Positions 39,941-40,384 of a stretch of DNA of 64,000 nucleotides are shown here, piece after piece; positions within the stretch are counted from its first letter, which is position 1, and every line of letters starts with the position of its first letter. The stretch comes from Halothermothrix sp. (GTDB lineage Bacteria > Bacillota > Halanaerobiia > DY22613): the NCBI GenBank assembly GCA_016841825.1, contig JAENYK010000002.1, positions 1 to 64,000 of the forward strand. Reading direction: 5' to 3'. The translations under genes and the position numbers were made by a program. The notes below the pieces were generated by a model that saw only the letters and a program-made list of their open reading frames with translations, was not told where the DNA came from and searched no databases.

Positions 39941-40145
39941 CCAGATTTAAGCTCTTTTTAGAAAAGGGTAAATTGGGTGGTTAATCAATGCGGTTCCAGA
40001 TTACAGGTAAGGCTGGTAATCTGCACTCTTAAGATTAAAATTGTAGTTTTCAGGAAATACAGGCAGGAATTAAGATATTATTGTGAAATAATATATATAA
40101 GAAAAACAAGAAATTATTAGCATATTATGAAAGGAGGTGTGGAAA

Positions 40146-40343
40146 ATGTATCTAAAGACTAAACAGAAGAAAGGGATTGCTCTTCCGGCAGCAGATGTTT
40201 GTATGAATGCTAATTGTCAAGGTGGATGTTTTACAACCTGTTCAGGTAGTTGTGCGACTTATTGTGGGTATACCTGTTATGCTGTGTGTTCTGACAACTG
40301 TGACAGTTGGTGCAAATTTGCTAGCAAATATACTCCTGTCTAA
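40146..40343 (+). CDS. Cysteine-periodic small peptide, RiPP-precursor-like
   Basis: This 65-aa peptide has ten cysteines at residues 19, 24, 28, 32, 36, 40, 44, 48, 52 and 56: from 24 to 56 every fourth residue is Cys. The first 18 residues form a basic leader-like part (MYLKTKQKKGIALPAADV) with no Cys. The ATG at 40146 is 8 nt from AAAGGAGG; an earlier GTG at 40137 overlaps that box. Its own hairpin follows. The layout suggests a ribosomally made, post-translationally cross-linked peptide of the SCIFF/ranthipeptide kind, or a metal-binding peptide. No radical-SAM maturase or transporter is adjacent. Function is unproved. Confidence 0.75.
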   Translation: MYLKTKQKKGIALPAADVCMNANCQGGCFTTCSGSCATYCGYTCYAVCSDNCDSWCKFASKYTPV

Positions 40344-40353
40344 GAATCAAGTT

Positions 40354-40384
40354 TGCCCGGTTTTATAGCCGGGCATTAACATTT
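40354..40384 (+). terminator. Hairpin after the cysteine-rich peptide gene
   Basis: Stem TGCCCGG (40354-40360) with CCGGGCA (40369-40375), followed by TTAACATTT. It probably ends a short transcript. Confidence 0.6.

Follow-up and report, generated by a model that had tools for sequence, protein, structure and literature searches.

A small gene on the forward strand of the window (the whole 64-kb stretch of DNA analyzed here), spanning positions 40146..40343 and encoding a 65-residue peptide (MYLKTKQKKGIALPAADVCMNANCQGGCFTTCSGSCATYCGYTCYAVCSDNCDSWCKFASKYTPV), quite probably specifies an orphan precursor belonging to a RiPP system of the CXXX-repeat radical-SAM type; a maturase encoded elsewhere in the genome, on contig C43, would recognize the peptide by its leader and act on it in trans. 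The parts of this assignment that are read from sequence are the Cys array, the leader shared with other genes, the paralogs that carry it, a complete modification cassette in the genome and the conserved co-location of such components in other organisms. A first-pass annotation had raised a RiPP reading, with enzymes possibly encoded elsewhere, and had regarded the peptide as its strongest candidate for something undescribed. The former stands, the peptide being precursor-like and a maturase, partner protein and exporter lying on C43, but the latter does not, since NCBIfam already has entries for CXXX-repeat target peptides and for the corresponding maturases (TIGR04114-TIGR04119). What is new here is the scattered set of precursors; the kind of system is already known. 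The analysis connects a peptide that seemed to stand alone with its likely enzymes, and indicates that the precursors of a CXXX-repeat system can be several and scattered over one genome, where RiPP mining based on clusters would overlook them.

Features of the window peptide and its gene

The peptide contains ten Cys (positions 19, 24, 28, 32, 36, 40, 44, 48, 52 and 56), nine of which form an unbroken i+4 chain over residues 24-56, as originally annotated; a chain of nine i+4 Cys occurred in none of 200,000 permutations of its residues. This array (residues 19-56; 40200..40313, forward strand), in which C19 precedes the nine regularly spaced Cys, follows a leader (residues 1-18; 40146..40199, forward strand) that is, again in agreement with the annotation, basic and Cys-free, with four Lys. 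The leader begins with a tag, MYLK[ST]K, common to five unlinked genes. In the broad sense of a CXXX-repeat precursor, the peptide thus has the expected layout, a Cys-free leader and then CxxxC repeats one after another.

Ten Cys among 65 residues, at a helix-like i+4 spacing, might alternatively belong to a peptide that binds a metal or cluster without being modified, its ligands arranged along one helix face. We judge this quite improbable: no Pfam model, metallothioneins included, matched the window peptide up to an E-value of 10, the family includes a member within a maturase operon (C43), and CxxxC chains recur beside the same maturase in several phyla.

Existing models of CXXX targets recognized the peptide only below their cut-offs. 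TIGR04117 (Syntroph_Cxxx), the best NCBIfam match, scored 20.8 bits (cut-off 50) with a match confined to the model's repeat half, TIGR04114 scored 9.7 bits (curated cut-off 20) and TIGR04118 scored 6.4 bits (curated cut-off 35). No copy in the present genome reaches the target-model cut-offs; because even the operon-linked C43 paralog fails them (14.2 bits with TIGR04117), the models evidently do not cover this branch. No SCIFF model was present among the NCBIfam matches of the window peptide up to an E-value of 10, and the leader and Cys spacing are unlike those of SCIFF peptides.

A strong Shine-Dalgarno sequence (AAAGGAGGTG; 40130..40139, forward strand) ends 6 nt before the ATG of the window gene. 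The same element precedes four of the five leader-tagged genes (the window gene and those on C43, C24 and C22), and no promoter motif common to the five copies was found besides this site. The gene is flanked by a CHASE4-GGDEF-HD gene upstream and DegV downstream, which bears out its annotated position between a c-di-GMP enzyme and degV. The terminator of the upstream gene is clear, while the peptide gene is followed by a hairpin (GCCCGGTTTTATAGCCGGGC; 40355..40374, forward strand; -17 kcal/mol, z -3.26) that is strong but has no good T run, was for that reason left uncalled by the terminator search, and is possibly a weak terminator. An Rfam search revealed no riboswitch around the window gene and, upstream of the C16 paralog, only a cspA-like element slightly under the gathering score. 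No radical SAM gene occurs within the 64-kb window, the closest on the same contig lying ~165 kb away, so the absence of a nearby maturase, also claimed at the outset, is confirmed.

Paralogs sharing the leader

Paralogs were reached in the genome (5.08 Mb, 43 contigs) by three routes: a search for the CxxxC pattern, a peptide search and a search for the leader pattern. Three combine the MYLK[ST]K leader and a Cys-free stretch with a CxxxC chain, of five Cys at C43:363256-363405, nine at C16:153993-154163 and eight at C24:57564-57719, and a short fifth gene at C22:645428 (MYLKSKKLVAINPSLPPENCEWGCDNQAAWSSVL) has the leader and a single CxxxC. Together with the window gene, these occupy five unlinked sites. 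The tag reads MYLKTK in the window peptide and MYLKSKI in the C43 paralog, so that the window peptide and the precursor of the maturase operon have a leader in common. When the other three paralogs were made into a profile, the window peptide scored 27.4 bits, a value reached by only 3 of 1000 shuffles in which Cys were held fixed. Three further matches were set aside: C22:307554, an out-of-frame ORF within a large protein gene; C38:145291, with an in-frame stop (TAA) in the matched DNA; and C11:5885, whose leader reads MYLKRK rather than containing S/T.

Between pairs of copies, one to three of the six leader codons differ synonymously while the residues MYLK[ST]K are kept, the pattern expected from selection on the protein. 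This bears on whether the window gene, though of the same family, is disused, a dispersed and decaying copy of the C43 precursor. Such decay would accord with the lack of a nearby maturase and of any orthologue found, with the seemingly reduced C22 copy, which keeps the leader yet contains just two Cys, and with the C-terminal tail of the window peptide, which differs from the Gly-containing one of the other copies. We nevertheless find it unlikely, given that the ORF, Shine-Dalgarno site, leader and nine-Cys chain of the window gene are all intact, that differences among the leaders include synonymous codon changes, and that the C16 and C24 genes are just as intact at their own unlinked sites.

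The modification cassette on C43

The first-pass annotation had proposed a check of the genome for radical-SAM/SPASM proteins, and this led to a CXXX-repeat peptide maturase with a partner protein and an exporter on C43. The operon encodes, in sequence along a single strand, a TIGR04116 protein, the maturase, an ABC exporter and the C43 precursor. The first (99 aa) scores 103 bits (cut-off 50) against TIGR04116, "CXXX repeat peptide modification system protein"; the 712-aa maturase is a fusion of TIGR04115, "radical SAM peptide maturase, CXXX-repeat target family" (559 bits, cut-off 350), with TIGR04119, "CXXX repeat peptide maturase domain" (235 bits, cut-off 150); and the exporter (601 aa) has no recognized peptidase domain. 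The genome therefore encodes a TIGR04115/TIGR04119 maturase and TIGR04116 above curated cut-offs, as befits a CXXX-repeat system in the broad sense.

Among characterized families, the radical SAM half of the maturase is closest to PapB (227 bits, under the cut-off) and is also related to the SCIFF maturase, its best solved relative being CteB (5wgg). In the second half the CxxxCxxC radical-SAM motif is missing, while the spaced SPASM Cys are retained as conserved columns; the predicted structure of a stand-alone TIGR04119 protein (pLDDT 86.8) matches CteB (5why, E 6e-9), followed by anSME and SuiB. Taken with this CteB-like model, the missing motif makes the C43 maturase look like an active radical SAM/SPASM half (TIGR04115) joined to an inactive, degenerate one (TIGR04119). 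The two halves are separate genes in other phyla. For TIGR04116, the predicted structure is confident (pLDDT 94.6; strand-helix-helix-strand-strand) and has no clear match in the PDB, and so yields no identification as a leader-binding (RRE) protein.

With ~93 radical SAM matches in the genome, several of RiPP-maturase type, a different radical SAM/SPASM maturase (for example one of the unassigned enzymes located at C24:66508-67878, C24:89883-91307 and on C40) could be the one that modifies the window peptide. This we hold to be very unlikely: of ten enzymes tested, none matches a CXXX-target family at an E-value of 1e-40, the C24:66508 enzyme has candidate precursors of its own in the two Cys-free peptides that follow it, and the C43 enzyme alone both exceeds the TIGR04119 cut-off and shares its operon with a paralog.

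Several further radical SAM loci of the genome were noted. The C24:66508 maturase, the RiPP-type enzyme nearest to the C24 paralog, and the two small Cys-free ORFs after it (C24:66508-68500; L140 508-1878, 2199-2501), which have a common leader (MLTIK..VLINDEIISPIKPPL.GY), probably constitute another RiPP system, in which the ORFs look like the enzyme's own substrates. On C30 (L144 3480-12280), two HxsB-type (His-Xaa-Ser) maturases, both over the TIGR03978 cut-off, lie within a string of some ten radical SAM genes. At C22:272800-287000 (L038 2827-16986), two mycofactocin-maturase-like genes and one StsB-like radical SAM/SPASM gene, all under cut-off, are surrounded by ABC transporters and a membrane-fusion-like protein, in what is likely a separate peptide cluster.

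Distribution among other genomes

In a sample of 398 genomes of the phylum, TIGR04116 and full-strength members of the peptide family were each confined to the present genome, and no close orthologue of the exact window peptide was found. A lack of homologues in relatives, which the annotation would have counted against its reading, is thus only half borne out: there are paralogs in the same genome and analogous precursors beside the maturase in other bacteria, but no close orthologue appeared in the 398 phylum genomes. Weak matches in these genomes to the profile of the genome's own paralogs (E-values of about 1e-5 to 1e-3) were not counted, as several contain stops; comparable weak matches that were inspected proved SCIFF-like (GGCGECQTSCQSACKTSC) and had a radical SAM gene of their own alongside. 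Searches of plasmid and viral sequences with the window peptide gave no match.

A broader scan of 84,980 species genomes, using a two-sequence maturase alignment as query, located 36 maturase loci. CxxxC-repeat peptides were encoded close to the maturase at about 26 of the 36, in several phyla, and a TIGR04116-like reading frame directly followed the maturase at 26. Clostridial precursors beside the maturase begin MYQSKI, MAYQSKI, MYSSKI, MYDSKI, MNYSSKI, MKLNSKM or MKLDTKI, and these starts bear a clear likeness to the MYLKSKI of the C43 paralog, their leaders being of a similar [YLF]x[ST]K type. In Clostridiales UBA10612, among the nearest maturase relatives, one precursor adjoins the maturase and exporter; a second (L119) is found on another contig, close to a transposase-like gene and with no maturase visible in its surroundings, so unlinked precursors are not peculiar to the present genome.

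A profile of the non-self clostridial precursors scored the window peptide at 25.9 bits, which 69 of 1000 Cys-fixed shuffles equaled, as against 7, 3 and 9 of 1000 for the C43, C16 and C24 paralogs, respectively. The similarity of the window copy to precursors of other species is therefore mostly one of Cys spacing, and it joins the peptide family mainly via its own paralogs.

Two other arrangements were seen. On viral contigs and at related loci in Clostridia, a CXXX-type radical SAM maturase adjoins long CxxxC-repeat proteins (L073 3187-6230, the same in L074, L075 125-3255, L106 and L109), which in L073 and L074 lie inside a gene run that, from translations only, resembles a phage tail/baseplate module. 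In Planctomycetes, Bacteroidota and other Gram-negative MAGs, CXXX-repeat precursors near the maturase (L077, L079, L080, L097, L098, L099 and L103) have twin-arginine motifs (SRRAFMK, DRRKFIK and similar) before a hydrophobic stretch, as if they were exported by Tat already folded.

Proposed pathway and comparison with known systems

We envisage that the MYLKTK leader of the window peptide would be read in trans by the C43 maturase, which, assisted by the small TIGR04116 protein, would modify the Cys array. The most plausible chemistry would join the sulfurs of Cys to carbons of the intervening residues, as thioethers of the type found in ranthipeptides and sactipeptides; such cross-links are likely, given the kinship of the maturase with the characterized enzymes PapB and CteB. 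The product would probably be exported by the C43 ABC transporter, its leader being removed by some protease, and may act outside the cell. A more far-reaching proposal, which we advance tentatively and rate as less than an even prospect, is that a single maturase of active and inactive halves handles all five scattered leader-tagged peptides in trans, with the i+4 Cys ladder giving regular cross-links or a modified-Cys metal scaffold, and with acceptors unlike those of any characterized ranthipeptide. Within the literature library searched, no paper on the chemistry of CXXX-repeat maturases came up; with the five natural candidate substrates that the genome offers for a single enzyme, this chemistry can be tested directly.

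The closest counterpart is the NCBIfam CXXX system (targets TIGR04114/TIGR04117/TIGR04118; machinery TIGR04115, TIGR04116 and TIGR04119), which has the same CxxxC core after a Cys-free leader and whose three machinery families are all present here above cut-off, with a paralog in the operon; it differs in that the window gene lies apart from the machinery and its peptide falls below the target-model cut-offs. A cassette on plasmid pAPRE01 of Anaerococcus prevotii (L072) likewise comprises a CxxxCxxxCxxxC peptide and an ABC transporter, and its maturase is 40.6% identical over its length to that of C43, but its peptide has only four core Cys, is linked to the maturase, and lies beside a class III lanthipeptide cluster. 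The TIGR04116 frame of pAPRE01 (L072 2365-2654) is broken in two; it is whole in Anaerococcus and Peptoniphilus relatives.

The ranthipeptide enzymes PapB (freyrasin) and CteB (SCIFF) are radical SAM/SPASM maturases of the same wider family, although the C43 enzyme does not reach the models for PapB and the SCIFF maturase. In Cys-X3-Asp/Glu motifs, PapB connects the Cys with the Asp/Glu (PMC9413430), a four-residue step that recurs in the Cys ladder of the window peptide. There, however, a further Cys occupies position i+4, which means that the acceptor must be something other than the Asp/Glu used by PapB.

In the prochlorosins, one lanthipeptide synthetase acts on many scattered precursors. 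While enzyme class and chemistry are different, the organization is alike, with one maturase apparently serving several unlinked precursors that have a common leader.
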